A model generated the notes under the pieces. That model made no database searches. It was not told the origin of the DNA and was given only the letters and a program-made list of their open reading frames with translations. Shown here piece after piece: positions 1-11,226 of a stretch of 11,226 nt of DNA (position 1 is the stretch's first letter; each line of letters opens with the position of its first letter). The position numbers were made by a program, and so were the translations under genes. Origin of the DNA: Promethearchaeota archaeon (lineage in GTDB: Archaea > Asgardarchaeota > Lokiarchaeia > Sigynarchaeales > MK-D1); assembly GCA_016839865.1 (NCBI GenBank), contig JAEOTN010000269.1, forward strand, positions 1-11,226. Direction: 5' to 3'.

Positions 1-1700
1 ATTCCACCACCTTCATCGATTATATCGATTTTTACATATTGACCCTCTAATTGTGGAATTGGTGCTGGAATTTGCGAATTATTGTAATTACGACCTCTAA
101 TTATGAGTGTACCACCATTAGGCATTACCATTGCTTGGTCAGCATTGATAACGATATTGTTTACTGCTTGACTGATCATACCGTCATCACCTTCGATCAT
201 CCATAAATCTTCACTAATATCAAATTTACAGCGATTTTTTGAGCCCAATAAAGCAAATGATGCAGTTTCTTTGATAATATTATCCAATGCGAGTGGTTTC
301 TTTACAGGTACTCCACCTTTAGCAAATGCTAGGAGCTGGTTTGTTAATGCTTTCGCCCTTACAGATGCTTTTTCAGCAGAAGATAGTATCTTACTAGCAT
401 CAGAATCGGTAGGTAATTCTAATCGTGCCAAAGATATACTTCCAAGAATAGCTTGGAGAATATTGTTGAAATCATGAGCTATCCCCCCAGCAAGTATTCC
501 TAAAGACTCGAGTTTATTTGCACGCATCAATTCCTGCAAATGTTTTTGTTGCTCGGTAATATCTCGAAATACAACAATCACCCCAATCAAGTTGTCTTGT
601 CCGTCTTTTATTGGAGCGGCAGAGGCTTGTATTATAAATTGAATTTTGTTTTTTGCTTTAAGGATGAGCGGATCCGTTATTTCAATAACATCTTGAGATT
701 CAATAACCGTGTCTAAAAAGGAAGTAACTTTTTTCTCATCACTGCCATAAATTGGAGAGAATACAAACTGTAAAGCAATACCAATTGCATCTTCTTGAGT
801 CCATCCTGTCAGTCGTTCTGCAGCCGGATTCATGAGATTAATGATTCCATACATATCAGTTGCAATAACTGCATCTCCAATACTTTTCAATGTTACAGAT
901 AAATGCTCTTTCTCTGATGCTAATGCTTGTTCCGCAAAAACTCGATCAGTTACGTCAATTGCTGAAAATAGAACAGCTTTCTCACCCAAATGACGAGCTC
1001 GTCCCATATACATCTCACAATACACGATTTCTGAGTTACTTTTTATCCAACGGATAATAAATTTCCCCTTAAATTCCGACTCAGGATTATAAAAATCATG
1101 TCGTAAATCTTGTATGATATGACGATCATCTGGATAGATATGTTGGGCAAATTCATAATTATCCCAATTTTTGGATTCTTCAAACGCATATCCGAGCAAT
1201 TCTTCCATTTTTGGATTCATATACTTAATTATACCAGATTCCAACCATAGGATTCCCATTAAAGAGTTGCTGGCTATCCCACGAAATTTCTGTTCTGATT
1301 CTCGCAATTTTTTTTGAAGATTATGACGTTCGATAGCATATTTGATTGATCTATAAAGTGTATGAGCATCAAAATTCCCTTTTGGAATATAATCTTGGGC
1401 TCCTTCCTGCACTGCATGTATAGCAAGTTCTTCCATTAAACCAGATAACACAATTATAGGAATTTCGCGAAAATGCTCATAAGTTCCTTTGAAAGTATCC
1501 AATCCAGAGCTATCAGGTAGGGTCAAATCGAGAAGGACTATGTCGAATTCCTGTACTTGTTTTTCAGAAATGCCTTTCGCTAAACTATCCACCCATGTTA
1601 CATGAAAAGAAGAAGATTGAACTTCATCCAAATATTCTTGGATTAGAAAAGCGTCCCCCGGATTATCTTCAATTAATAATACTCGAATTTTACTTACCAT
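1..1700 (-). CDS. Hybrid receiver-PAS-PAS-histidine kinase (3' end cut by window edge)
   Basis: Translating the minus strand from the ATG at 1700-1698 gives 566 open codons up to the window edge. Order of domains: an N-terminal receiver (about 5-120) with acidic pair E11/D12, phosphoacceptor D58, switch S86 and K107; PAS about 136-250; PAS about 262-385; HisKA with motif AGGIAHDFNNIL and phosphoacceptor H409; then the HATPase domain with N-box NNIVINADQA (514-523) and the start of the G1 box, DEGGG (562-566), where the window ends. Having the receiver at the N-terminus suggests a kinase controlled by upstream phosphotransfer and, through its PAS domains, by small ligands or redox state. No membrane segment is seen, so it is probably cytosolic. 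Its ATG overlaps the stop of the preceding receiver gene by one base (TAATG), so it is the fourth gene of the signalling operon. The signal it senses is not predictable. Confidence 0.93.
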   Translation of the reverse strand, partial: MVSKIRVLLIEDNPGDAFLIQEYLDEVQSSSFHVTWVDSLAKGISEKQVQEFDIVLLDLTLPDSSGLDTFKGTYEHFREIPIIVLSGLMEELAIHAVQEGAQDYIPKGNFDAHTLYRSIKYAIERHNLQKKLRESEQKFRGIASNSLMGILWLESGIIKYMNPKMEELLGYAFEESKNWDNYEFAQHIYPDDRHIIQDLRHDFYNPESEFKGKFIIRWIKSNSEIVYCEMYMGRARHLGEKAVLFSAIDVTDRVFAEQALASEKEHLSVTLKSIGDAVIATDMYGIINLMNPAAERLTGWTQEDAIGIALQFVFSPIYGSDEKKVTSFLDTVIESQDVIEITDPLILKAKNKIQFIIQASAAPIKDGQDNLIGVIVVFRDITEQQKHLQELMRANKLESLGILAGGIAHDFNNILQAILGSISLARLELPTDSDASKILSSAEKASVRAKALTNQLLAFAKGGVPVKKPLALDNIIKETASFALLGSKNRCKFDISEDLWMIEGDDGMISQAVNNIVINADQAMVMPNGGTLIIRGRNYNNSQIPAPIPQLEGQYVKIDIIDEGGG

Positions 1701-2155
1701 TAAATCCCCCCATTAATTTTGACAGGTGTAATCACATGTTCAAACCAGAATTGCTTCAATAACTGGATCATTTCCAGAAAATCTTCATATTTGAACGGTT
1801 TGATAATAAAGGCGTTAGCATAACGTTCATAGGCGACATTTATTTCCCCCTTACGAGAACCGTTTGTAATGATAATTGAAGGAAGGTCTTTATAATCCTT
1901 ATGTGATTTAATTTTTTTCAGAAGATCTAAACCATTTAAACCCGGTAAATTTATATCAATCATAATTAAATCTGGTAAATTTCCTAAAGATTTCTTCTCA
2001 CTGAGATACTTAAGGCATTCAATTCCATTATGGACGTTATCAATTTGCACTTTATAGTGATCAGTTTCTTTCTCTAATTCTGTAAAAGCTTCTTTTGTGA
2101 TGAGAACATGAGCGGAATTATCTTCAACTAGGAGGATGTGCTTGTTTGAATTCAT
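1700..2155 (-). CDS. Stand-alone response regulator receiver, Rcp1-like (canonical)
   Basis: A 151-residue protein that is one CheY-like receiver domain with no output domain. All phosphotransfer residues are visible: the acidic patch E11/D12, phosphoacceptor D67 in the stretch LIMIDINLPG, switch T97 and invariant K119 followed by Pro. The C-terminal helix with FWFEHVITP resembles the tail of Rcp1-type regulators, which partner phytochrome-like kinases. It should take phosphate from one of the two flanking kinases and pass it on, or act by protein contact. The ATG overlaps the stop of the upstream receiver (ATGA, 2152-2155), and its own stop overlaps the start of the hybrid kinase. Its actual partner is not shown by sequence. 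Confidence 0.95.
   Translation of the reverse strand: MNSNKHILLVEDNSAHVLITKEAFTELEKETDHYKVQIDNVHNGIECLKYLSEKKSLGNLPDLIMIDINLPGLNGLDLLKKIKSHKDYKDLPSIIITNGSRKGEINVAYERYANAFIIKPFKYEDFLEMIQLLKQFWFEHVITPVKINGGI
1706..1711 (-). promoter_or_regulatory. Shine-Dalgarno-like G-run before the hybrid kinase
   Basis: Six consecutive G on the minus strand lie 5 nt before the ATG at 1700. They sit inside the last codons of the upstream receiver gene. This supports the chosen start and re-initiation at the TAATG junction. Confidence 0.45.
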
Positions 2156-2601
2156 TTGATTTCAACTCCTCGTATCTCAGGTAAAGTGATAATTTCCAAC
2201 CACAATTTTAAGACGATGTTGAATAATTGAGTGAATTCTTCGAAAGAGGGGGGTTTCTTAAGATAGGCATTTACATGGAGATTATAGCATTTCTTGATAA
2301 ATTCTTCATTAGATGAATTTGATAGAACTAATATTGGAATTTTTTTTAGTTCAGGATGCTTTTTTATGGATTGTAATAGTGTCAAGCCTTTATTGTTAGA
2401 GACTTCTATTTCAAGTAAGATGAGTTTAGGATAAAACCGTTCACGTTTATTTCTTGATGGAAAAAGGAGTTCCATTGCATCTACGTAATTTTGTGATGTT
2501 CTAATAATATTGGGAATTGAACGTAGGTCAATTATCTTATTCACCCATATGGCTATCTCTGGATCATCATCTATCAAAATGATTTCTGGTGATTTTTTCA
2601 T
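2152..2601 (-). CDS. Stand-alone receiver with Asp-to-Glu at the phosphorylation site
   Basis: A 149-residue Rcp1-like receiver counted from the ATG at 2601. The frame stays open to another ATG at 2673, but 2601 is preferred: it forms a 4-base ATGA overlap with the kinase stop, has GGAGG 7 nt upstream, and puts the first beta-strand at the normal distance from the N-terminus. The acidic cluster D11-D13, switch S94 and the Lys-Pro pair K116/P117 are kept. The phosphoacceptor position is Glu64 (codon GAA, 2412-2410), in PKLILLEIEV where a normal receiver has Asp. Glu cannot be assumed to accept phosphate and may mimic the phosphorylated state. A tail with LWLEIITLP matches the next receiver, suggesting an old duplication. 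Likely role: a pseudo-receiver modulating the neighbouring kinases (inference). Confidence 0.92.
   Translation of the reverse strand: MKKSPEIILIDDDPEIAIWVNKIIDLRSIPNIIRTSQNYVDAMELLFPSRNKRERFYPKLILLEIEVSNNKGLTLLQSIKKHPELKKIPILVLSNSSNEEFIKKCYNLHVNAYLKKPPSFEEFTQLFNIVLKLWLEIITLPEIRGVEIK
2166..2171 (-). promoter_or_regulatory. Shine-Dalgarno-like GAGGAG
   Basis: GAGGAG on the minus strand lies 10 nt before the ATG at 2155, inside the end of the upstream receiver gene. The spacing is slightly long, but it fits internal re-initiation in this overlapping operon. Confidence 0.4.
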
Positions 2602-4544
2602 TGATGATCCTCCATTTTCTTTGGAATGGTGAAGAAGAAAGTTGTTCCAACATTCACTTTGGATTCCAACCATATAAGCCCTCCATGGTTATCAATGATT
2701 TTTTTACATAATGGTAAACCAATTCCGCTTCCAGGATATTTATCCCGGGGGTGTAATCTTCGAAAGTTAAAAATTTGCTCAAAATATTCTTCCTTTATTC
2801 CGATTCCATTATCTTTAATAGAGAATTTCCATCCTTCTGTTAAATTTTGCATAGAGATGATTATTTTGGGTTTCCGATTACAGAATTTTATAGCGTTTGA
2901 GATTAAATTCTGAATCACTTGAGTATATAATGTAGGCTCTCCATAGATATGGGGCATGTCTCCAATTTCAATTTCTGCTTCTGTCTCATCAATCATCATT
3001 TTCAAATTATTCAAAGCTTCACTAATTTTTTCGTTTACATCGAATTCACAGAAATTTTGCTCTTTGTCAACACGAGAGTAAGCTAGTAATGCTTTAATCA
3101 TCTCATTCATTCGATTGGCTCCATCTACAGCATAATGGATATAGGCATTTGCCTTATCATCTAATTGATCTTTAAATTTTCGTTCAAATAGAGAAAGATA
3201 TGTGCTAACCATTCGGAGAGGTTCAGGTAAGTCATGAGAAGCAAAATATGCGAAATTTTCTAAATCCTTATTCTTTTGTTCTAGTTCTTTGTTTTTTCGT
3301 TTTAAAGCTGCTTGTACTCTAGTTAATTCGGTAACATCCGTGGAAATGGAGAACCGAACAGTCTTCCCATCTATCCACTTGATGAATTGATCTTCAACCA
3401 AAAAAGTGCGATTAAATTTCTTGTTAAAAAAATCGTTTGTAATAATGGGTTTCCCCTTATTCTTGAATAGCTCTTTGTTTGAACACCACGGACACGGAAT
3501 TGGTGAATCAAAAAACACTTCATGACATTTTTGGCCTACAGGATCAAATCCCAAAGATTCTCGAGTATGTTTATTTGTAAATAATATTGTATTATCATTT
3601 TCAACAGGATTAGAAACATAAATATAGCTTCGTATGGAATCAAATAATGAAAATAACTGATTCCGTTCAAATTCCATTATTTCTTCAGTTTCTCTCCGCT
3701 CAGTTACGTTTCTTGACCGAAGGACGATTCCATTAATTACAGAGTCATCAAGATAGTTCTGCGCAACACTCTCAATCACACGCCATGTACCATCTTTGTG
3801 ACGTATATGTAAGTCCACAATATACTCGAATATCAGACTGGAAACAAACTTCTTCATTGCCTCCATGAAGGATTCGTAGTCTTCTGGTAACATAATCTCT
3901 GATAGATTTAATTCAATGAATTCCTCGATAGTATATCCCAAAATTTTTGTGACAGAAGGACTGATATAATCAATTTGACTCTTAGAATTAAAAATCAAAA
4001 TAAAATCAGATGAATTTTCTGTTACTCGACGGTAAAAATTCTCACTTTCACGTAGCGCTGCCGCAATTAGTTTTCGTTCAGTAATATCTTGACCAATAAA
4101 AATACAACCAATAATGTGCCCAATCTCATCTTTAATTGCTGTAGGATTAGATAAAATGTTTACTTCCGTATCAATACTTGTTATAATTGCAATTTCCTCG
4201 AATAAGAGTCGCTCATTTCGTCTTACACGATGTAATATTTGTTTCACTGAGTTTTCAGTGTCTGGTCGGATGAATTTTGTAAGTGGTAATCCTCCGACGT
4301 CTTCAAATGCATATCCCGTTATTCGTGCAATTCCTTGGTTCCATATGTTTATGTTCCCTTTCTGATCAACGCTAAAAATTGGTGCATTCGAGGTATCCAA
4401 CGCATTACTAATATCTTTCGTTGATGTGAGAATTTGATGGTGCTCCAATTGCGTTTTACATGAAGATAACTCTTCTTCAAGCTCTATTATTCGCTTTTTT
4501 AGGGATTCCACCTCTAAATTAGGAGAACCAGCCGAATCTGTCAT
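2598..4544 (-). CDS. Triple-PAS sensor histidine kinase
   Basis: A 648-residue kinase with no transmembrane segment, so probably a cytosolic sensor. A charged coiled coil (about 10-36) is followed by PAS1 (about 44-158), PAS2 with PAC (about 166-286) and PAS3 (about 293-408). PAS3 carries a Cys cluster: C340, and CPWC at 351-354. A second coiled coil (about 408-430) leads to HisKA, FAYFASHDLPEPLRMV (431-446), with phosphoacceptor H437, a type common in phytochrome-like kinases. The HATPase domain is complete: N-box N546/N550, G1 DNGIGI (578-583), F-box around 591-597, G2 GSGIGLPLCKKI (605-616). It lacks a receiver and is the first gene of the operon, so the two small receivers that follow are its likely partners. 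An extra Pro (P440) sits three residues after the His. Confidence 0.96.
   Translation of the reverse strand: MTDSAGSPNLEVESLKKRIIELEEELSSCKTQLEHHQILTSTKDISNALDTSNAPIFSVDQKGNINIWNQGIARITGYAFEDVGGLPLTKFIRPDTENSVKQILHRVRRNERLLFEEIAIITSIDTEVNILSNPTAIKDEIGHIIGCIFIGQDITERKLIAAALRESENFYRRVTENSSDFILIFNSKSQIDYISPSVTKILGYTIEEFIELNLSEIMLPEDYESFMEAMKKFVSSLIFEYIVDLHIRHKDGTWRVIESVAQNYLDDSVINGIVLRSRNVTERRETEEIMEFERNQLFSLFDSIRSYIYVSNPVENDNTILFTNKHTRESLGFDPVGQKCHEVFFDSPIPCPWCSNKELFKNKGKPIITNDFFNKKFNRTFLVEDQFIKWIDGKTVRFSISTDVTELTRVQAALKRKNKELEQKNKDLENFAYFASHDLPEPLRMVSTYLSLFERKFKDQLDDKANAYIHYAVDGANRMNEMIKALLAYSRVDKEQNFCEFDVNEKISEALNNLKMMIDETEAEIEIGDMPHIYGEPTLYTQVIQNLISNAIKFCNRKPKIIISMQNLTEGWKFSIKDNGIGIKEEYFEQIFNFRRLHPRDKYPGSGIGLPLCKKIIDNHGGLIWLESKVNVGTTFFFTIPKKMEDHQ
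2609..2613 (-). promoter_or_regulatory. Shine-Dalgarno GGAGG that decides the start at 2601
   Basis: GGAGG on the minus strand lies 7 nt before the ATG at 2601 and is embedded in the last codons of the kinase gene. It is the best ribosome-binding site in the window and argues against the longer start at 2673. Confidence 0.6.
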
Positions 4545-4660
4545 GATATCCTCTCAATTTTGCCACACTATCGAAAGAGACTCTGATCGTGCGTACACAA
4601 AAACAAGAAGTCCACACATTGGAAAATATGTTTCGGAAAAAAATACCCAAATTGGATTTC

Positions 4661-4670
4661 TTTTTAAATT
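4661..4670 (-). promoter_or_regulatory. Weak TATA-like box for the signalling operon
   Basis: AATTTAAAAA on the minus strand. An archaeal start about 25 nt downstream would give a leader of roughly 90-100 nt before the kinase ATG at 4544. AT-rich background makes this a weak call. Confidence 0.25.
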
Positions 4671-4867
4671 TTAATGCGACCCTCAAAATGAATTTCTAAC
4701 CGTTAAGGGCATTGTTTTAACATAGATTGAAGAGACATCTTAATTCGCTAATAATAATTCTTCTATTCTTCTCTTTCTCCAAATTTTTCTATTTAGATTG
4801 ATGTAAGAAGATTCTTTACCAAAAAAAAGTACGAGATCGACGAATCTTATTAATAATATGAATCTAA

Positions 4868-4875
4868 TTATAAAT
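4868..4875 (+). promoter_or_regulatory. TATA-like box, leaderless-type spacing, for the NTF2-SDR-flavoprotein operon
   Basis: TTATAAAT is centred about 27 bp before the ATG at 4899. That is the TATA-to-start distance of archaeal leaderless mRNAs, and no Shine-Dalgarno motif lies before this ATG. An alternative AT-rich box, TTATTAATAATAT (about 4848-4860), would instead give a leader of about 20 nt. Confidence 0.5.
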
Positions 4876-4898
4876 CATTCAAGAATTGAGTGTTCTAA

Positions 4899-5339
4899 AT
4901 GAGTTATAGAATTGAAAGCTTGGATCAATTCACGAAATTATGGACTAACATCTACAATTCTCAAGAAAAACCAGATTGGTCAGGTATCATCCCTTATTAT
5001 GATGAGAAGATTCAATTTCGTGATTCTATTCAAGAAATCCATGGGAAAAAGGAATTCATTGAAATGACTGAACGATTAGTTAGACGATCACAGAATTTGA
5101 AAATCAAAATCATTAATATTTCAATGAAGGGAAAGATTATTTTCTTTGAATGGGAAATGACCTTAAGTTTTAATAACCTGCCAAATTCGAAGATATTCGG
5201 GGCAAGTCGACTAACTTTAAGCGAGAAGGGTAAGATCATAAAGCAGAGAGATTATTACGATCTTTGGGGTGATGTTATGGATAGTATTCCAGGTATCGGG
5301 AAAGGCTATCGGAAATTTATGCAGAAAGTTTTTGGGTGA
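4899..5339 (+). CDS. NTF2/SnoaL-like fold protein
   Basis: A 146-residue protein fitting the small alpha+beta-barrel (NTF2-like, SnoaL/ketosteroid-isomerase) superfamily. It has N-terminal helices, the segment YYDEKIQFRDSI (33-44), G49 before a helix, strand FFEWEMTL (82-89), and the typical closing strands GASRLTLSEKGKI then QRDYYDLWGD (116-125). Members range from isomerases and cyclases to non-catalytic binding proteins. The polar residues D42, E84, E86 and D118 face the usual pocket in such folds (inferred from family topology), but no specific catalytic set can be assigned. The C-terminal segment after P131 is basic and amphipathic. It is the first gene of the operon and overlaps the SDR start by 4 bases (GTGA). 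Possible job: double-bond isomerisation, or holding a hydrophobic intermediate. Confidence 0.85.
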   Translation: MSYRIESLDQFTKLWTNIYNSQEKPDWSGIIPYYDEKIQFRDSIQEIHGKKEFIEMTERLVRRSQNLKIKIINISMKGKIIFFEWEMTLSFNNLPNSKIFGASRLTLSEKGKIIKQRDYYDLWGDVMDSIPGIGKGYRKFMQKVFG

Positions 5340-6280
5340 TCTCCTTGGGTAAATTTAGATACTTGTTTAAATATAGATTCTCTAACGTTGGGGCAATGAT
5401 TAGGAACAATAAAGCAGATCCTTTAAAATGCACAGAGGACTTTAAAGGACACTTAGTTGCGATAACCGGTGCCACATCTGGAATTGGGTATGCTACTGCA
5501 CGAGAATATGCTACCCATGGAGCGAACTTGTTAGTGATAAATCGAAACATAGAAAAAAGTCGGAGCTTATGTGAAGAAATTACTAAGGACTTCAGCGTGG
5601 AGTGTTCCTACATACTTGCAGATTTTGCCAACCTTTCCGATATTAAAAAAGTTGGTAAGGATCTACTAAATTCGGATTTGAATATTGACGTATTCATTCA
5701 TAATGCTGGTGCTGATTTTGGAGAAAGAGTGTTGTCGAACGATGGTTTTGAGATGGTTTTCCAAGTGGATCATCTCGCCCCATTTATCTTAACTTATTTG
5801 TTGAAAGAAAAACTTAAAGCTCAAAAAAAATGCAGAATCATATTCGTTAATTCAGAAGCTCATCGCTTTGCCGTTCTCGGATTAAATTTGAACGATATTA
5901 ACTGGAAAAGACGTCGCTATTCCAGATTAAAAAGCTATGGCTCTGCTAAAACCTCGCAACTTCTAACAATGATAAAATTTGATGACTATTTTCGAGATAG
6001 TGGAGTAACGATAAATGCAATGCATCCTGGCAATGTAAAAACTAAAATGGCAGAAAAGAGTAGCGGATTTTTCCAGAGAGTATTCATTGAGCCGAATTTT
6101 AGATCGATCGATATATCTACAAGATCCTTATACTATCTTGGGGTTTCGAAAGATGTTGAAGGTGTAAGTGGTAAATTTTATAACCTAACTCGTGAAGAAG
6201 AACCCGCACCTCCAGCATTAGACAGAGAAGTTGCCCAAGAGTTATGGGATTTAAGCATCAAAATGGGTGGGTTAGACTGA
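5336..6280 (+). CDS. Short-chain dehydrogenase/reductase, retinol-dehydrogenase-like
   Basis: A 314-residue classical SDR with an intact active site: cofactor motif TGATSGIG (44-51), NAG (123-125), catalytic Ser173, Tyr201 and Lys205 (YGSAK). R70 after the second beta-strand favours NADP(H). The stretch DGFEMVFQVDHLAPF and the motif HPGNVKTKM resemble retinol-dehydrogenase/WWOX-type SDRs, which oxidise or reduce hydrophobic alcohols and ketones. The start is GTG at 5336, overlapping the previous stop (GTGA); the next in-frame ATG is at 5396, before the Rossmann fold, so the N-terminus is uncertain by 20 residues. The 35-residue N-terminal extension is basic and aromatic and may touch the membrane. 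It is sandwiched by overlaps between the NTF2-like gene and the flavoprotein gene. The substrate is unknown. Confidence 0.93.
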   Translation: MISLGKFRYLFKYRFSNVGAMIRNNKADPLKCTEDFKGHLVAITGATSGIGYATAREYATHGANLLVINRNIEKSRSLCEEITKDFSVECSYILADFANLSDIKKVGKDLLNSDLNIDVFIHNAGADFGERVLSNDGFEMVFQVDHLAPFILTYLLKEKLKAQKKCRIIFVNSEAHRFAVLGLNLNDINWKRRRYSRLKSYGSAKTSQLLTMIKFDDYFRDSGVTINAMHPGNVKTKMAEKSSGFFQRVFIEPNFRSIDISTRSLYYLGVSKDVEGVSGKFYNLTREEEPAPPALDREVAQELWDLSIKMGGLD

Positions 6281-7878
6281 ATGATAAGAGACACGAAATT
6301 GTCATTGTAGGCGCTGGGATGGCTGGACTTACTGCTGCTTCATATTTATCAAGAGCAGGACATGATGTTCTATTAATTGAGAAGAATAATACCTGTGGGG
6401 GGCTACTCACTTCGTTTCATAAAGATGGATTTGTGTTCGATACTGGTGCTAGGTCTATTGAAAATTCAGGGGTAGTGCGACCTTTATTGAGTGACCTAGG
6501 TATACCTCTTGAATTGATTCATAGCTCAGTTTCTGTTGGAATTGAAGATGAGATAATTCATTTTCTTTCGGAGTCGAGTATACAAAAATATAGGATCTTA
6601 TTAGAACGACTATATCCAGAAAATGTAGATGAAATAGTGGGAATTTTCTCGCTAATTATGGATATCATGAAAGATATGACGATTTTATCCGAGATTGATA
6701 ATCCCATCATCACTGGTTTGAAAAATTTCAGGTATCTTTTCAAGGAACTACTTCCCTATGTCGTTAGGAAGTTTCTTGGTTCGGTTAGACGAATAAATCA
6801 AATGAATACACCTATCGAGCAGACGCTGAGAAAATATACTTCAAACCAATCCCTTATAGATATTATCGCCCAACATTTTTTTAAGGATACACCCACTTCT
6901 TTTGCTTTAGGATACTTTCACACTTACTTCGACTATCTTTATCCGAAAGGAGGTACTGGTAATCTTCCAGAAGCTATCAAGGAGAAAGCACTGGAATGGG
7001 GAACGATAATTCGATATGGAACAGAAATACGGGAGATCATCCCATCTGAAAAAAAAGTGACTGATTCCAATGGTATTTCATTTTTCTATGAAAAACTCCT
7101 TTGGTGTGCGGATTTGAAATCATTATATAGACGTCTTAACCTTCATGGTTTAAAGGAAAAGATTTCTCGTAAGATAGTAAATAAAAAAGAAAAATTACTT
7201 AAAAGACATGGGGGAGATTCAGTTTTTACCCTATTCCTTGGAATAGATGAACCACTGAAAACATTTCGATCGATTTCAAATGGGCATTTCTTCTATACTC
7301 CTTCAAAGAAAGGTTTAGGCGTGTCAATTTGGACCAGATTGAAAGAAATTACAACGAATTTTGAAAATACTCCCAAAAAAACTATCCTGCAGTGGTTGGA
7401 CGATTTTTGCAAATTTAACACATATGAAATTTCCATTCCTGGAATTAGAGATTCCAGCCTAGCTCCAAAAGGAAAAACAGGAATGATTGTTAGCATTCTA
7501 TTTAACTATGATTTGATAAGCAAAATTAGAGAAGCAGGGTGGTATAAGGAATTCAAGACAGAAGTGGAAACTCGCATCATAAACACTCTCCATAATTCTG
7601 TGTATCCAGATTTCAAAGATAAAATCATTTTAAGATTCTCTTCAACACCGATAAGTATAGCAAATACAGTAGGGAGTTCTGAAGGGGCGATAACGGGTTG
7701 GACATTTGAACAACCGGTTCCTGTGGTTCAAGATCTCCTTAAGATATTTAAATCTGTTAATACTCCGATTCCAAATATATTTCAAGCCGGTCAATGGGTG
7801 TATAGCCCATCTGGAATACCTATTGCTATCTTAACAGGTGTGTTAGTAGCTAAAAAGCTGATGAAAATTAAGAAATAA
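6244..7878 (+). CDS. FAD-dependent oxidoreductase, phytoene desaturase / carotenoid isomerase / retinol saturase-like
   Basis: A 544-residue flavoprotein. The FAD dinucleotide fold is at the N-terminus: IVIVGAGMAGLTAASYL (19-35) with GxGxxG at 23-28, ribose-binding E46 and the CGG turn (51-53). The second FAD motif is at the C-terminus: AGQWVYSPSGIPIAILTG (515-532). Length and this bipartite layout match COG1233-type phytoene dehydrogenase-related proteins, which include CrtI desaturases, CrtISO isomerases and retinol saturase. Substrates are usually polyenes or other lipids. The ATG at 6244 overlaps the SDR gene by 37 bp; no other in-frame ATG lies before the FAD fold, though CTG at 6277 would give a 4-base CTGA overlap. 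No signal peptide or clear membrane helix is seen. Desaturase, saturase and isomerase activity cannot be told apart here. Confidence 0.92.
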   Translation: MGFKHQNGWVRLNDKRHEIVIVGAGMAGLTAASYLSRAGHDVLLIEKNNTCGGLLTSFHKDGFVFDTGARSIENSGVVRPLLSDLGIPLELIHSSVSVGIEDEIIHFLSESSIQKYRILLERLYPENVDEIVGIFSLIMDIMKDMTILSEIDNPIITGLKNFRYLFKELLPYVVRKFLGSVRRINQMNTPIEQTLRKYTSNQSLIDIIAQHFFKDTPTSFALGYFHTYFDYLYPKGGTGNLPEAIKEKALEWGTIIRYGTEIREIIPSEKKVTDSNGISFFYEKLLWCADLKSLYRRLNLHGLKEKISRKIVNKKEKLLKRHGGDSVFTLFLGIDEPLKTFRSISNGHFFYTPSKKGLGVSIWTRLKEITTNFENTPKKTILQWLDDFCKFNTYEISIPGIRDSSLAPKGKTGMIVSILFNYDLISKIREAGWYKEFKTEVETRIINTLHNSVYPDFKDKIILRFSSTPISIANTVGSSEGAITGWTFEQPVPVVQDLLKIFKSVNTPIPNIFQAGQWVYSPSGIPIAILTGVLVAKKLMKIKK

Positions 7879-7904
7879 GATAATAATCCATCTCTCTTTG
7901 CAGA

Positions 7905-7912
7905 TTTTTTTT
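7905..7912 (+). terminator. T-tract terminator after the flavoprotein gene
   Basis: Eight consecutive T follow the flavoprotein stop by 26 bp, with a pyrimidine-rich lead-in and no obvious hairpin. This matches archaeal oligo(T) termination. A new TATA-like box follows at once, so the operon probably ends here. Confidence 0.5.
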
Positions 7913-7922
7913 CATGATTGGT

Positions 7923-7931
7923 TTTATAAAG
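7923..7931 (+). promoter_or_regulatory. TATA-like box for the first tail-anchored paralogue
   Basis: TTTATAAAG is centred about 47 bp before the ATG at 7974. With an archaeal TATA-to-start distance of about 25 bp, this gives a leader of roughly 20 nt. The spacing is nearly the same as that of the second paralogue. Confidence 0.5.
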
Positions 7932-7973
7932 AGTGAAAACCATCTACAATCAAAAAATTGATGAGTATTATCC

Positions 7974-8978
7974 ATGAAAATCAAAGATGATGAAAAGTTC
8001 ATTCGAGTTGTTGAAAATTTAGTAATCCCTTCAGAAGTTAGTAACCTCATTTTCTTCTCCGGATTTAAGAAACTGGTTCCAAAATCTGTTTTTAAAAGAA
8101 TGTTGGAAAAAATATCTAACAAATCTCCGCACCTTGGTTTTGTTATTGAACCATATGCGATATTTCTATTTTTCAAGCTAAAAAATGTCGAAGAAGCTAA
8201 ATCGTACTTGCCTGAACGCTATGAACTAACAAAATCCAAAATATTTGATGATGAGGAACCTCAGCATTACTTGGGAATGGGGATTTTCAATACCAGAGCA
8301 AGCACATTTTGGGGTTCAAGACTAGAAGTATATCTTATTGCGAAAGATAAGGAAACAGGTCACCCATCGTGGATCTTCTTAGATATTCTAAGTGATACAC
8401 TTATTGCAATTCCTAAGGAAGGAGTAGCAGATAAAAACTGCACAAATGCTATACATACAACAAATTCAAAGGGAGAGATTTTGATAGATTTTAAAGAAGA
8501 CGAAACTGGTCGACAGCTTATATTAAACGGAAATATTACCAAAGGAAAAATGCGTCCTCTCTACCAGCCAATTTGGGTTGCTGGAAATACATCAATAGGG
8601 CATCGCAAAGATTGGTCTGAAAAAAATGATGACCCATTTGCAGTAATTTTCGATCCTGCTGAAGTTGAAAAAGCGTTAGACATTCCCCTTAAAGACGTTC
8701 ATCTAAAGAAAAATACACTTTTTCCAGAATTAGCCGAACCTGAATTAGTCAAGGTGTTGTGTTTTCCCTTCGCTCAACATTACATTGCTGATAGTCCGGG
8801 ACGTCGCACTTATGTGAAGGATATCGATGATATGATAAAGAATTATAACAAAATTTCAAACTTAAATGATATTAAAACCTTTTCAACAAAAGGTATAAAG
8901 AGAATGCTATTGATGGGGATGGTTTTACCTACCCTAGCATCGATTATTCTTTTTATTTTATTACTGATCAATTTATGA
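7974..8978 (+). CDS. Tail-anchored protein of unknown family, copy 1 (acetoacetate-decarboxylase-like fold, tentative)
   Basis: A 334-residue protein I do not firmly recognise. It has a soluble region (1-308) and one hydrophobic helix at the very C-terminus (about 311-333). With no signal peptide, it is probably a tail-anchored protein with its domain in the cytosol. Conserved with the next gene: GFVIEPY (55-61), LPERYEL (79-85), RLEVYLIAKDKETG (116-129), PK at 147-148, FDP (226-228), LCFPFAQHY (262-270). The beta-rich pattern, the LPxxYEL segment and a Pro-Lys pair recall acetoacetate decarboxylases, whose lysine forms a Schiff base; this is a weak resemblance. It ends with ATGA overlapping an upstream in-frame ATG of the next gene. 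It has its own TATA-like box and follows a T-tract, so it can be expressed separately from the flavoprotein operon. Confidence 0.9.
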   Translation: MKIKDDEKFIRVVENLVIPSEVSNLIFFSGFKKLVPKSVFKRMLEKISNKSPHLGFVIEPYAIFLFFKLKNVEEAKSYLPERYELTKSKIFDDEEPQHYLGMGIFNTRASTFWGSRLEVYLIAKDKETGHPSWIFLDILSDTLIAIPKEGVADKNCTNAIHTTNSKGEILIDFKEDETGRQLILNGNITKGKMRPLYQPIWVAGNTSIGHRKDWSEKNDDPFAVIFDPAEVEKALDIPLKDVHLKKNTLFPELAEPELVKVLCFPFAQHYIADSPGRRTYVKDIDDMIKNYNKISNLNDIKTFSTKGIKRMLLMGMVLPTLASIILFILLLINL

Positions 8979-8988
8979 TAGGTGTTTT

Positions 8989-8998
8989 TTATATAAAG
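8989..8998 (+). promoter_or_regulatory. TATA-like box for the second tail-anchored paralogue
   Basis: TTATATAAAG is centred about 48 bp before the ATG at 9041, matching the 47 bp seen before copy 1. It lies just after the stop of copy 1 (8978). If used, its transcript would begin near 9020 and exclude the upstream ATG at 8975, which supports 9041 as the start. Confidence 0.5.
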
Positions 8999-9040
8999 TC
9001 ATATATTGGAGAAAAACTCAAAGCGGGATCCGTAATTTCT

Positions 9041-10057
9041 ATGAAAAAAGAAGAAAATAGGAAATTAATTAAAAAAATTGAATCTCTCATTAATCCCAAA
9101 GATTCAGCTACTATTAGTTTCTTTAGTGAATTCACAAAGAATCTTCCTAAAAAAACCCAAGATAAATATCAAGAGAAAGGAAGCAAGAAAATACCATATA
9201 TGGGCTTCATCGTGGATCCGTATTGTTTTTTTTTAGCATATAAAATCACTAACACCTCAGCGGCGCAAGATATGCTTCCCGAAGGTTATGAACTAGCTGA
9301 AACTTCATTGTACAAGGGCGGTGACAAATATCCTATGGCAATAGCTGCTGTATTCACAGCTCGTACCTCTGCATTTTCAGGAATGCGACTTGAATTTTAC
9401 ATAATTGCAAGGAACAGGGAAACTGGTTTGTTATCTTGGATCATCTCCGATTATGAAACAAATACTAACAGCCATGATCCTAAAGCTGGTTTTGGCGGAT
9501 TCAGCACATCTACAGCTGTATATACGATTTCTCCCTATGGTGAATTACTAGTTGATATAAAGAATCGAGAGAATGACAATGAGTTCATTCTAACTGCTGA
9601 CATAAAAAATGGTGAAACAAGGGAATTAGATGAATCTCTATGGATTGAAGGAAATCTTTCGGTTGATTATGGTGGAAATTTAAAAACAGATGCACCATCA
9701 CATTTTACATTGATCTTTGATCCGGTTTTGATGAAAGAAGCAGTAAACATCCCTATTAAGAATATCCAAATCGAGTCTAACTCATATTTAAACAATATCA
9801 TTGACCCTATAAAGCCTGTTGATGCGGTTCTCTTTCCCTATACACAGCATTTTGTTATTAAACAAGACCTTAAGAAGTACGAAATTCAAAAAGAAAGTGA
9901 TTTATACCCTCACATAAAGACTTTCCTTGATAGAACTGGATTTAAAACCATGTCGGGTGATGACATTAAAAAACCAATATTCAGAAGTATGAAACTTTCG
10001 TTTCTAATCACTACTGGTATTATCATAACTTTACTGATTTTGCTCCTGATTAAATAA
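9041..10057 (+). CDS. Tail-anchored protein of unknown family, copy 2 (paralogue of the preceding gene)
   Basis: A 338-residue paralogue of the gene before it, collinear without obvious gaps for the first 270 residues. The frame is open from an ATG at 8975 (360 residues, ATGA overlap with copy 1). I prefer 9041 because MKKEEN aligns with the first residue of copy 1, the length then matches (338 vs 334), and a TATA-like box lies 48 bp upstream. Shared blocks: GFIVDPY (55-61), LPEGYEL (79-85), RLEFYIIARNRETG (116-129), PK (147-148), IFDP (225-228), LFPYTQHF (264-271). A single hydrophobic helix (about 318-337) ends the protein. Unlike copy 1, it has SDYETNTNSHDP (136-147), rich in polar residues before the Pro-Lys pair. 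Function is unknown; membrane anchoring suggests work on lipids or with the 5-alpha-reductase-like enzyme downstream. Confidence 0.88.
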   Translation: MKKEENRKLIKKIESLINPKDSATISFFSEFTKNLPKKTQDKYQEKGSKKIPYMGFIVDPYCFFLAYKITNTSAAQDMLPEGYELAETSLYKGGDKYPMAIAAVFTARTSAFSGMRLEFYIIARNRETGLLSWIISDYETNTNSHDPKAGFGGFSTSTAVYTISPYGELLVDIKNRENDNEFILTADIKNGETRELDESLWIEGNLSVDYGGNLKTDAPSHFTLIFDPVLMKEAVNIPIKNIQIESNSYLNNIIDPIKPVDAVLFPYTQHFVIKQDLKKYEIQKESDLYPHIKTFLDRTGFKTMSGDDIKKPIFRSMKLSFLITTGIIITLLILLLIK

Positions 10058-10065
10058 AATCACGA

Positions 10066-10086
10066 TTTTTTTTCTATTCTTCTCTC
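10066..10086 (+). terminator. T-tract terminator after copy 2
   Basis: Eight T (10066-10073) followed by a pyrimidine-only run begin 9 bp after the copy 2 stop. No stem-loop is evident. The 200-bp gap before the reductase gene otherwise shows only AT-rich sequence. Confidence 0.5.
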
Positions 10087-10249
10087 GAATTTATAAATTT
10101 TCTGATTCTTTTGCCCTTTTAGAGCCAATCAATAATTTTCTGATATTAATTTTGTTTACAATGCTTATTAGAAAGAAATAATACATAAATGTGATGAGAT
10201 TGTCAATAATTTTGCTGTAGAATCTTGTCAGATTTATCTAGATGAATAG

Positions 10250-10257
10250 TTATAAAA
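10250..10257 (+). promoter_or_regulatory. TATA-like box touching the annotated reductase ATG
   Basis: TTATAAAA directly abuts the ATG at 10258. If it is the true TATA box, transcription would start near 10276-10282, where two further in-frame ATGs occur (10276, 10282). The mRNA would then be leaderless and the protein 6 or 8 residues shorter. Confidence 0.35.
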
Positions 10258-11058
10258 ATGAGTTCCTCAGAGTACATGATTATGGAATGGACTCTCTTTA
10301 ATATCACAATAATTATGATGTTCGGTTTAGCGGTGATTGTGTTCATCACATTATTTTTTCAAACAGCTGGATACGGACAGCACTATACAAAGAAATGGGG
10401 TTGGACTGTTAACAACAAACTTGGATGGGTTCTTATGGAATTACCCACTGTAGTGATTTTTGCAATCTATTACTTTATTGGATTTACCACAGAAATAGTT
10501 CCATTAGTTTTCTTGTTTATTTGGAATCTTCATTACATGCAAAGGACATTTATCTTTCCTTTACTCATTCGCGGGAAAGATCCGATGCCGATTACTATAG
10601 TATTGATGGGAATTGTGTTTAACGGAATCAATGCATATTTACAGGCATATTGGATATATATCTTAGCGCCAGTTGAGAAACCTCATTTTTACGGGATAAC
10701 TTGGCTATGGGATGTGCGTTTCATAATAGGTTGTGTTATTTTTCTCTCAGGATATATAATTAATCTCCAATCGGACAAAATAATTCGAAATCTACGCCCA
10801 AAAGACTCCAAAGAAAAATTCCAATTCAAGATCCCTCGAGGGGGAATGTTCAAATATGTATCATGTCCAAGTTACCTCGGAGAAATAATGGAATGGACAG
10901 GATGGGCAATAGCAACTTGGTCATTAGCAGGTTTGGTGTTCCCAATTTGGACTTTTGCAAACTTAGCGCCTCGAGCAATTAAAAATCATAAATGGTACAA
11001 AGAGAAATTTGAAGATTATCCAGAGAATCGCAAAGCTTTGATTCCAGGAATCCTGTAG
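10258..11058 (+). CDS. Steroid 5-alpha-reductase family (SRD5A/DET2-like) membrane reductase
   Basis: A 266-residue multi-pass membrane protein with clear resemblance to eukaryotic 3-oxo-5-alpha-steroid 4-dehydrogenases across its length. Family enzymes use NADPH to reduce a C=C conjugated to a carbonyl. Visible signatures: LMELPTVV with E61 (human SRD5A2 E57), LHYMQRTFIFPLLIRG with Y93 (Y91), NAYLQ, INLQSDKIIRNLR with N169 and D173 (N160, D164), IPRGGMFKYVSCPSYLGEI with E209 (E197), MEWTGWAIATWSL, and the C-terminal KFEDYPENRKALIP. Human numbering is from memory. Hydrophobic helices lie near 12-34, 57-76, 80-103, 112-134, 150-170 and 213-236. The position of SRD5A2 N193 is Ser205. Start 10258 is used; 10276 or 10282 is possible given the TATA-like box. 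The native substrate is unknown: steroid, polyprenyl or other enone. Confidence 0.95.
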   Translation: MSSSEYMIMEWTLFNITIIMMFGLAVIVFITLFFQTAGYGQHYTKKWGWTVNNKLGWVLMELPTVVIFAIYYFIGFTTEIVPLVFLFIWNLHYMQRTFIFPLLIRGKDPMPITIVLMGIVFNGINAYLQAYWIYILAPVEKPHFYGITWLWDVRFIIGCVIFLSGYIINLQSDKIIRNLRPKDSKEKFQFKIPRGGMFKYVSCPSYLGEIMEWTGWAIATWSLAGLVFPIWTFANLAPRAIKNHKWYKEKFEDYPENRKALIPGIL

Positions 11059-11062
11059 AGAA

Positions 11063-11226
11063 TTAGCCTTTTTTAAACAAAGGACGTTGATACCACTTTT
11101 TCTTTTTTCCGGTTTGTTGGGTTTTTTCTCCGAAAAAATAATCCATGCCTACGCGTTCCACCTTACGTAGATGCTCATTTACGGCAGAAACAGATATGTT
11201 CATCTTTTCTGCGATACTTTGTGCAC
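11063..11226 (-). CDS. C-terminal part of a helix-turn-helix transcription regulator (5' end beyond window)
   Basis: The minus strand holds 53 residues and a TAA stop (11065-11063), entering from the right edge. The visible part contains a helix-turn-helix, SIAEKMNISVSAVNEHLRKV (3-22), as in winged-helix ArsR/MarR-like archaeal regulators. After it come a wing-like hairpin and a very basic tail (four consecutive Lys at 40-43, ending in LFKKG). Helix two of the motif and the recognition helix are complete, so DNA binding is likely. The N-terminal part is missing, so any ligand or dimer domain cannot be judged. The gene converges on the reductase with a 4-bp gap. Whether it regulates the lipid-redox cluster is unknown. 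Confidence 0.75.
   Translation of the reverse strand, partial: AQSIAEKMNISVSAVNEHLRKVERVGMDYFFGEKTQQTGKKKKWYQRPLFKKG
11069..11108 (+). terminator. T-rich region after the reductase, inside the convergent gene
   Basis: Plus-strand T-runs at 11069-11074, 11097-11101 and 11103-11108 follow the reductase stop. They are the complement of Lys-rich codons in the convergent regulator gene and could serve as an archaeal oligo(T) terminator. Confidence 0.3.

Follow-up and report, generated by a model that had tools for sequence, protein, structure and literature searches.

The window analysed here is an 11,226-nucleotide stretch of a Promethearchaeota archaeon (GCA_016839865.1, contig JAEOTN010000269.1, positions 1 to 11,226). 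Six plus-strand open reading frames (ORFs) lie between positions 4899 and 11058, where the first-pass annotation of this DNA, made from the sequence alone, had placed them and had read them as one functionally linked lipid-redox cluster. The ORFs, their strand and their domain assignments were confirmed, but the six-gene set was not seen elsewhere. What recurs is genes 1 to 5, which form a conserved five-gene cassette common to Asgard archaea and spirochaetes. It comprises an NTF2-fold protein, a retinol dehydrogenase (RDH)-like short-chain dehydrogenase/reductase (SDR), a CrtI-like flavoprotein and two tail-anchored (TA) proteins, TAa and TAb. The sixth gene, an SRD5A-type reductase, is an independent resident neighbour and not a member of the cassette.

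4899..5339, plus strand: cassette gene 1, NTF2/SnoaL-like protein, 146 amino acids
5336..6280, plus strand: cassette gene 2, RDH-like classical SDR, 314 amino acids, GTG start
6244..7878, plus strand: cassette gene 3, CrtI/amine-oxidase-type FAD oxidoreductase, 544 amino acids
7974..8978, plus strand: cassette gene 4 (TAa), predicted acetoacetate decarboxylase (ADC)-like fold plus C-terminal membrane helix 308-334
9041..10057, plus strand: cassette gene 5 (TAb), 338 amino acids, paralogue of gene 4
10258..11058, plus strand: gene 6, SRD5A / PF02544 membrane reductase, resident neighbour outside the cassette

Genes 1 and 2 overlap by 4 bp and genes 2 and 3 by 37 bp, gene 3 is followed after 95 bp by genes 4 and 5, and 200 bp separate gene 5 from gene 6. 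This is the arrangement of three overlapping genes with three following that had been described, except that the start of gene 5 is most likely at 9041 and not at 8975, because the majority of its 120 best relatives measure 334-339 amino acids and the aligned ones begin at that methionine. An alternative start of gene 3 near codon 12 is possible on similar grounds, most of its best 120 relatives being about 529-533 amino acids long. The cassette does not stand out by its GC content (34-37%, compared with 32-37% elsewhere). The best named relatives of the window proteins are mostly from Lokiarchaeota/Promethearchaeota and some other Asgards, in keeping with the archaeal host that had been entertained; relatives of gene 5 also include Spirochaetales.

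Conserved linkage of genes 1 to 5

Scanning a species-genome collection with a profile made from the anchored-protein alignment yielded 30 loci, each of which was queried by tblastn (E ≤ 1e-8) with all six proteins of the window. In twenty-five of them (L001-L025) TAa and TAb are adjacent, each present at least in part, and L026 carries a cut-off TAb only. Beside the TA pair, a CrtI-like gene is found in 18 of the 25 paired loci, an SDR in 15 and NTF2 in 13; all five genes occur together in 12 (L004, L007, L010, L012, L013, L015, L018 and L020-L024). The gene order of the window, NTF2-SDR-FAD-TAa-TAb, recurs in L013, while in most complete loci TAa-TAb lies opposite FAD-SDR-NTF2. L020 and L022 have NTF2-TAa-TAb opposite FAD-SDR, and in L017 a FAD fragment follows TAb. 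The nearest flanking genes, inspected by eye, differ among the 12 complete loci. An all-against-all clustering of ORFs returned few non-core families present in at least three loci: opposite-strand ORFs overlapping core genes, an ABC-type ATPase family (4 loci), a CDC48-like AAA ATPase at varying distance in 3 Loki loci, and an 807-amino-acid family in 3 loci.

The linkage was also seen in a survey of 227 Asgard genomes, in which an NTF2 orthologue was found in 15 (E ≤ 1e-20), a TA relative in 19 (E ≤ 1e-10) and the flavoprotein in at least 21 (E ≤ 1e-100; a lower bound, with six candidates scored per genome). The SDR adjoins NTF2 in 15 of 15 genomes, and adjoins the flavoprotein in all 19 in which the site is not truncated by the end of a contig. 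Seventeen of the 19 Asgard TA genomes belong to the Loki order, the other two being G321 and G337. The trio NTF2-SDR-FAD also occurs in three Asgard genomes (L097-L099) and SDR-FAD with no NTF2 match in five (L100-L104). An arbitrarily rooted tree of SDR plus FAD sequences shows three supported groups: Loki, the other Asgards and the bacteria. For genes 1 to 5, the functional link that had been proposed from co-location thus gains the support of conserved linkage; for SRD5A it does not. No paper was recognised as describing the five-gene cassette in a search of literature that lacked most subscription papers and all bioRxiv preprints.

Genes that look HdrA-like and MvhD-like, named by sequence appearance and not by family search, adjoin one cassette (L012:5303-8848), and genes of similar appearance lie near L098 and L102, Asgard loci that have the trio or the pair. 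The remaining loci of the profile scan, L027-L030, hold a single TA relative in two Patescibacteria and two uncultured bacteria, with no trio within about 8-10 kb on each side.

The resident SRD5A gene and a cassette-free site

None of the 30 cassette or TA loci has SRD5A in its fetched flanks, which reach at least 8.7 kb on both sides in 11 of the 25 paired loci and are shorter in the others. The occurrence of SRD5A is also independent of the cassette in the Loki order. Among 79 genomes of this order (that of G003, the L005 genome), most of them drafts so that absence and distance are approximate, 17 have TA genes and 22 have SRD5A (E ≤ 1e-30). Six genomes combine the two, on different contigs in every case, and SRD5A is found in 6/17 genomes with TA and 16/62 without it (Fisher p 0.54). 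The first-pass annotation had suggested looking for the same gene set around SRD5A genes. Regions from 16 of the 22 SRD5A-containing genomes showed no cassette gene nearby except one distant SDR (32%), located 8 kb from SRD5A in L124.

A locus without the cassette was found in genome G021. This locus, L128, is the same as that of the window, matching window positions 98-4481 at 70% and 10355-11220 at 68% nucleotide identity; the histidine kinases are 72% and the SRD5A proteins 69% identical. Between kinase and SRD5A, L128 has 827 bp where the window has the cassette. No TA, FAD or NTF2 match was found in G021 at the cut-offs used, with six candidates scored per genome in the FAD search. G021 is the only one of the 79 genomes of the order with this histidine kinase at E ≤ 1e-180, in a search that scored up to 15 candidates per genome. 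In the window, a 14-bp pyrimidine-rich direct repeat brackets the cassette; a shared 14-mer appeared in 1 of 300 mononucleotide shuffles.

2598..4544, minus strand: PAS histidine kinase, left flank, resident locus, 72% amino acid identity to the L128 kinase
4761..4774, plus strand: 14-bp direct repeat, left copy, identical to 10072-10085 (status uncertain)
10072..10085, plus strand: 14-bp direct repeat, right copy, identical to 4761-4774 (status uncertain)

The comparison of the two loci suggests that the cassette most likely arrived by insertion, with the resident histidine-kinase cluster on one side and the resident SRD5A on the other. The kinase belongs to a minus-strand sensory cluster (window 3-4544) that also includes two response regulators and another sensor, which has receiver and PAS domains. 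On the other side, window 11064-11226 holds the C-terminal part of a minus-strand gene that converges on SRD5A, and the L128 gene at the matching position has an HTH_10 domain.

The product of gene 6 matches PF02544 (Steroid_dh) at 168.9 bits, with a gathering cut-off of 22.6, and PbSRD5A (7c83) at 243.9 bits. According to PMC7815742, QEY is the catalytic signature of SRD5A, and Q56A/L abolished the activity of human SRD5A2. Gene 6 keeps E61 and Y93, the equivalents of E57 and Y91, and has M60 at the position of the glutamine. Methionine takes this place in 146 of 147 aligned rows (the window, 26 sequences from the loci and 120 listed matches, among them P0241, which is the window protein itself), the last row having a gap; to judge from this alignment, gene 6 belongs to an SRD5A subfamily of prokaryotes whose catalytic signature reads MEY, not QEY. 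Six of the eight NADPH residues named in the same paper are kept (N160, D164, R171, E197, R227 and Y235), while N193 is replaced by S and H231 by N; over the 147 rows the H231 position is N in 85 and H in 50. Because of the missing glutamine and the changes at N193 and H231, a steroid is not an assured substrate.

Sequence and predicted folds of the cassette proteins

The trio proteins were assigned in a Pfam/NCBIfam scan of ten window proteins. Gene 1 matches SnoaL_2 (PF12680, 34.1 bits; gathering cut-off 27), and D42, Q45, W85 and Q116-R117-D118-Y119 are invariant in 12 aligned sequences including that of the window. Gene 2 matches adh_short (Pfam, 95 bits) and has the complete classical SDR set, TGATSGIG at 44, N123, S173 and Y201xxxK205; its best NCBIfam subfamilies, PRK06197 and PRK06196, both score under their cut-offs. 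Gene 3 matches Amino_oxidase (PF01593, 78.9 bits) and NAD_binding_8 (PF13450, 62.4 bits), which agrees with its description as a CrtI-like flavoprotein, though it reaches only 80.4 bits against crtI_fam, whose cut-off is 238.1. Its top named NCBIfam families are CrtI/CrtD/CrtO, and some of its relatives carry the JGI names retinol 13,14-reductase or phytoene dehydrogenase-like.

TAa and TAb are paralogues with 31% identity. Hydropathy analysis gives each a single C-terminal hydrophobic helix (308-334 in TAa, 316-338 in TAb) and none elsewhere, so the pair of tail-anchored proteins seen in the first pass stands. No Pfam family matches either protein above its cut-off, and the predicted structures of both have the ADC barrel fold. 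The presumed Schiff-base lysine site is a lysine in 33 of 53 family members: it is kept in 27/32 TAb, in 2/17 TAa (one of them the window's own) and in all four single copies. In the window's TAb the presumed lysine lies near residue 170, counted from a start at 8975. TAa and TAb form fully supported separate branches of the TA tree, in which the Loki sequences are nested, with moderate support, inside bacterial ones. In genomes G033 and G076 the TA matches contain an in-frame stop and the flavoprotein search (E ≤ 1e-100) gave no match; their TA copies are possibly decaying. G321 and G337 encode stand-alone TAb-like proteins of 307 amino acids (41% identity) with no C-terminal hydrophobic helix and a serine at the presumed lysine site; no trio was found in the fetched region around either gene.

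L132:8345-9229: stand-alone TAb-like protein of one of the two Asgard genomes outside the Loki order, 307 amino acids, anchorless
L133:8474-9367: stand-alone TAb-like protein of the other of these two Asgard genomes, 307 amino acids, anchorless

Proposed function and comparison with known systems

We favour, with a probability of roughly 0.6, the interpretation that genes 1 to 5 are an accessory, horizontally spread and most likely inserted cassette that modifies a membrane-soluble long-chain substrate; it probably acts on a membrane lipid with its two membrane-anchored proteins. The cassette hosts are expected to have either archaeal or bacterial lipids, so the substrate would be one present in both kinds of cell, such as a polyprenol or a quinone. 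The CrtI-like flavoprotein would alter a C=C bond of the chain by desaturation, saturation or isomerisation, and the SDR would interconvert alcohol and carbonyl on the same molecule. The NTF2-fold protein may isomerise, hydrate or hand on an intermediate. TAa and TAb, ADC-like barrels held at the membrane by the C-terminal helix, would present the lipid at the membrane surface; TAb, usually with the lysine, may do carbonyl chemistry, and TAa, usually lacking it, would be a non-catalytic partner in most hosts. In Methanosarcina, hydroxyarchaeol is the product of a phytoene-desaturase homologue (cited in PMC10821996), and UfaD, a related flavoprotein, can desaturate phospholipid chains (PMC7380195).

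Several observations weigh against this interpretation. The five parts are not strictly interdependent, since there are loci lacking FAD, a TAa-only locus and Asgard genomes lacking TA. Seven of the 25 paired loci have no flavoprotein: in three (L006, L008 and L014) the contig stops on one side of the pair, and the contig of L002 is short and holds a remnant of TAa, but the spirochaete loci L009, L016 and L025 have no FAD gene in their fetched flanks. In L009 and L016 those flanks hold an SDR with the TA pair and neither flavoprotein nor NTF2. A further spirochaete locus (L131:4824-9839) has NTF2-SDR-FAD plus TAa only, with an opposite-strand ORF in between, and the eight Asgard genomes with trio or SDR-FAD pair have no TA match at E ≤ 1e-10. 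The ADC fold of TAa was not found by Foldseek alone, none of the 53 family members matched PF06314, a profile search of the PDB gave no match at E ≤ 1, and hhalign against four Loki ADCs was negative. The lysine site was placed from strand order and not from coordinates; the lysine of the window's own TAa goes against a strict division into active TAb and inactive TAa, and the two anchorless Asgard proteins mean that the membrane anchor is not universal in the family. SRD5A, though unlinked, occurs somewhere in 10 of the 18 genomes that gave TA loci (E ≤ 1e-40). The preference for insertion over deletion rests on one cassette-free genome, and both chemistry and substrate are inferred.

That single genome leaves some room for the converse history, in which G021 lost an ancestral cassette, and the SDR-FAD pair does look old in Asgards. 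Deletion nevertheless seems doubtful, as G021 has no TA, FAD or NTF2 match at the cut-offs used (six candidates per genome in the FAD search) and cassettes elsewhere adjoin other genes. SnoaL/NTF2, SDR and FAD proteins often serve as tailoring enzymes, and the cassette could serve a small-molecule (ketone, aldol or polyketide-like) pathway in which the ADC-fold pair is a decarboxylase or aldolase-dehydratase, the trio does the tailoring and anchoring is incidental. The solved ADC-fold proteins atop the list include both MppR and an aldolase-dehydratase; the two helix-less TAb relatives would fit as well. We consider this unlikely: both window paralogues have the membrane helix, 15 of 17 TAa lack the presumed lysine, and among the shared neighbours we noticed no synthase, ligase or carrier protein.

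DHRSX is an SDR, and a single pathway of all six genes could pair SDR with SRD5A as DHRSX is paired with SRD5A3 (polyprenol to polyprenal to dolichal to dolichol). The two genes share a strand in the window, PMC11607601 describes a three-step dolichol detour with DHRSX and an SRD5A-family enzyme, and SRD5A is found in 10 of the 18 cassette-type genomes searched. This is now very improbable and largely refuted by the lack of SRD5A in the fetched flanks of the 30 loci, by its unlinked occurrence in the order and by the cassette-free kinase-SRD5A locus of L128; in addition, the background of SRD5A in one spirochaete order is 15/26 genomes, and the closest solved relatives of gene 6 are PbSRD5A and SRD5A2, with no SRD5A3 structure among the matches. 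Carotenoid, retinoid or squalene metabolism, as suggested by the CrtI/CrtD/CrtO and retinol-reductase names around gene 3 and its pairing with an RDH-like SDR, fares scarcely better. A home-made carotenoid, one of the substrate classes named in the first pass, is unlikely because gene 3 is far under the carotenoid cut-offs and phytoene/squalene synthase (PF00494, E ≤ 1e-10) occurs in only 3 of the 17 TA-containing genomes of the order (7/79 overall). A furan-fatty-acid (Ufa) type operon is hardly credible. The SDR PSPTO_1119 adjoins the flavin oxidase-like PSPTO_1118 in a Pseudomonas syringae regulon (PMC5507510) and UfaD is such a flavoprotein, but the pathway of R. sphaeroides needs O2 (PMC7380195). 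Genes 1 to 5 had no tblastn match (E ≤ 1e-3) in six DUF1365 neighbourhoods, used as stand-ins for verified UfaD, and the ten scanned window proteins include no DUF1365 or CFA methyltransferase.

In a more far-reaching form of the favoured reading, the cassette would be a mobile module for lipid editing that spreads between domains. At its core would stand a new class of ADC-fold pair anchored in the membrane, TAb with the lysine and TAa usually without it, and its substrate would be a lipid that ether-lipid archaea share with ester-lipid bacteria. SDR and FAD enzyme might, for example, carry out allylic oxidation, double-bond saturation and re-reduction of polyprenols, as an independently evolved counterpart of the DHRSX/SRD5A3 route. 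We regard this as very improbable, the more so because the window's TAa keeps its lysine and two anchorless relatives were found.

With the cassette, a five-gene unit common to Asgard archaea and spirochaetes is defined, including a protein family with no Pfam match. If the membrane lipids of the hosts differ as expected, the substrate should be one that both contain. The tempting reading of the locus as an archaeal steroid pathway is corrected, SRD5A being an independent gene of the MEY subfamily.

Compared with known systems, gene 6 shares the E57 and Y91 equivalents with SRD5A1/2 and PbSRD5A (7c83, 7bw1) but differs from them by methionine for the QEY glutamine and at two of eight NADPH positions. 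The DHRSX/SRD5A3 detour has SDR plus SRD5A-family chemistry in common with the window, whose relatives do not keep the two genes together. Gene 3 shares the FAD-binding fold and overall length of the CrtI/CrtD/CrtO and carotenoid isomerase families, yet scores 51-81 bits (NCBIfam) against curated cut-offs of 238-1000. In the UfaD / RpoE-ChrR operon of Rhodobacter and Pseudomonas (PMC7380195, PMC5507510), an SDR lies beside a phytoene-dehydrogenase-related flavoprotein, as in the cassette, and UfaD acts on membrane acyl chains; the cassette genes lack similarity to the DUF1365 neighbourhoods and the window lacks a DUF1365/CFA protein among those scanned. The nearest known counterparts of TAa and TAb are in the ADC-like superfamily (3c8w, 3bgt, 5upb, MppR and the Sbi aldolase-dehydratase). 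The pair differs from these in having no detected sequence similarity to them, in not conserving the presumed Schiff-base lysine, and in its extra N-terminal helices and C-terminal membrane helix, by which the family puts a predicted ADC-like barrel on a membrane anchor.

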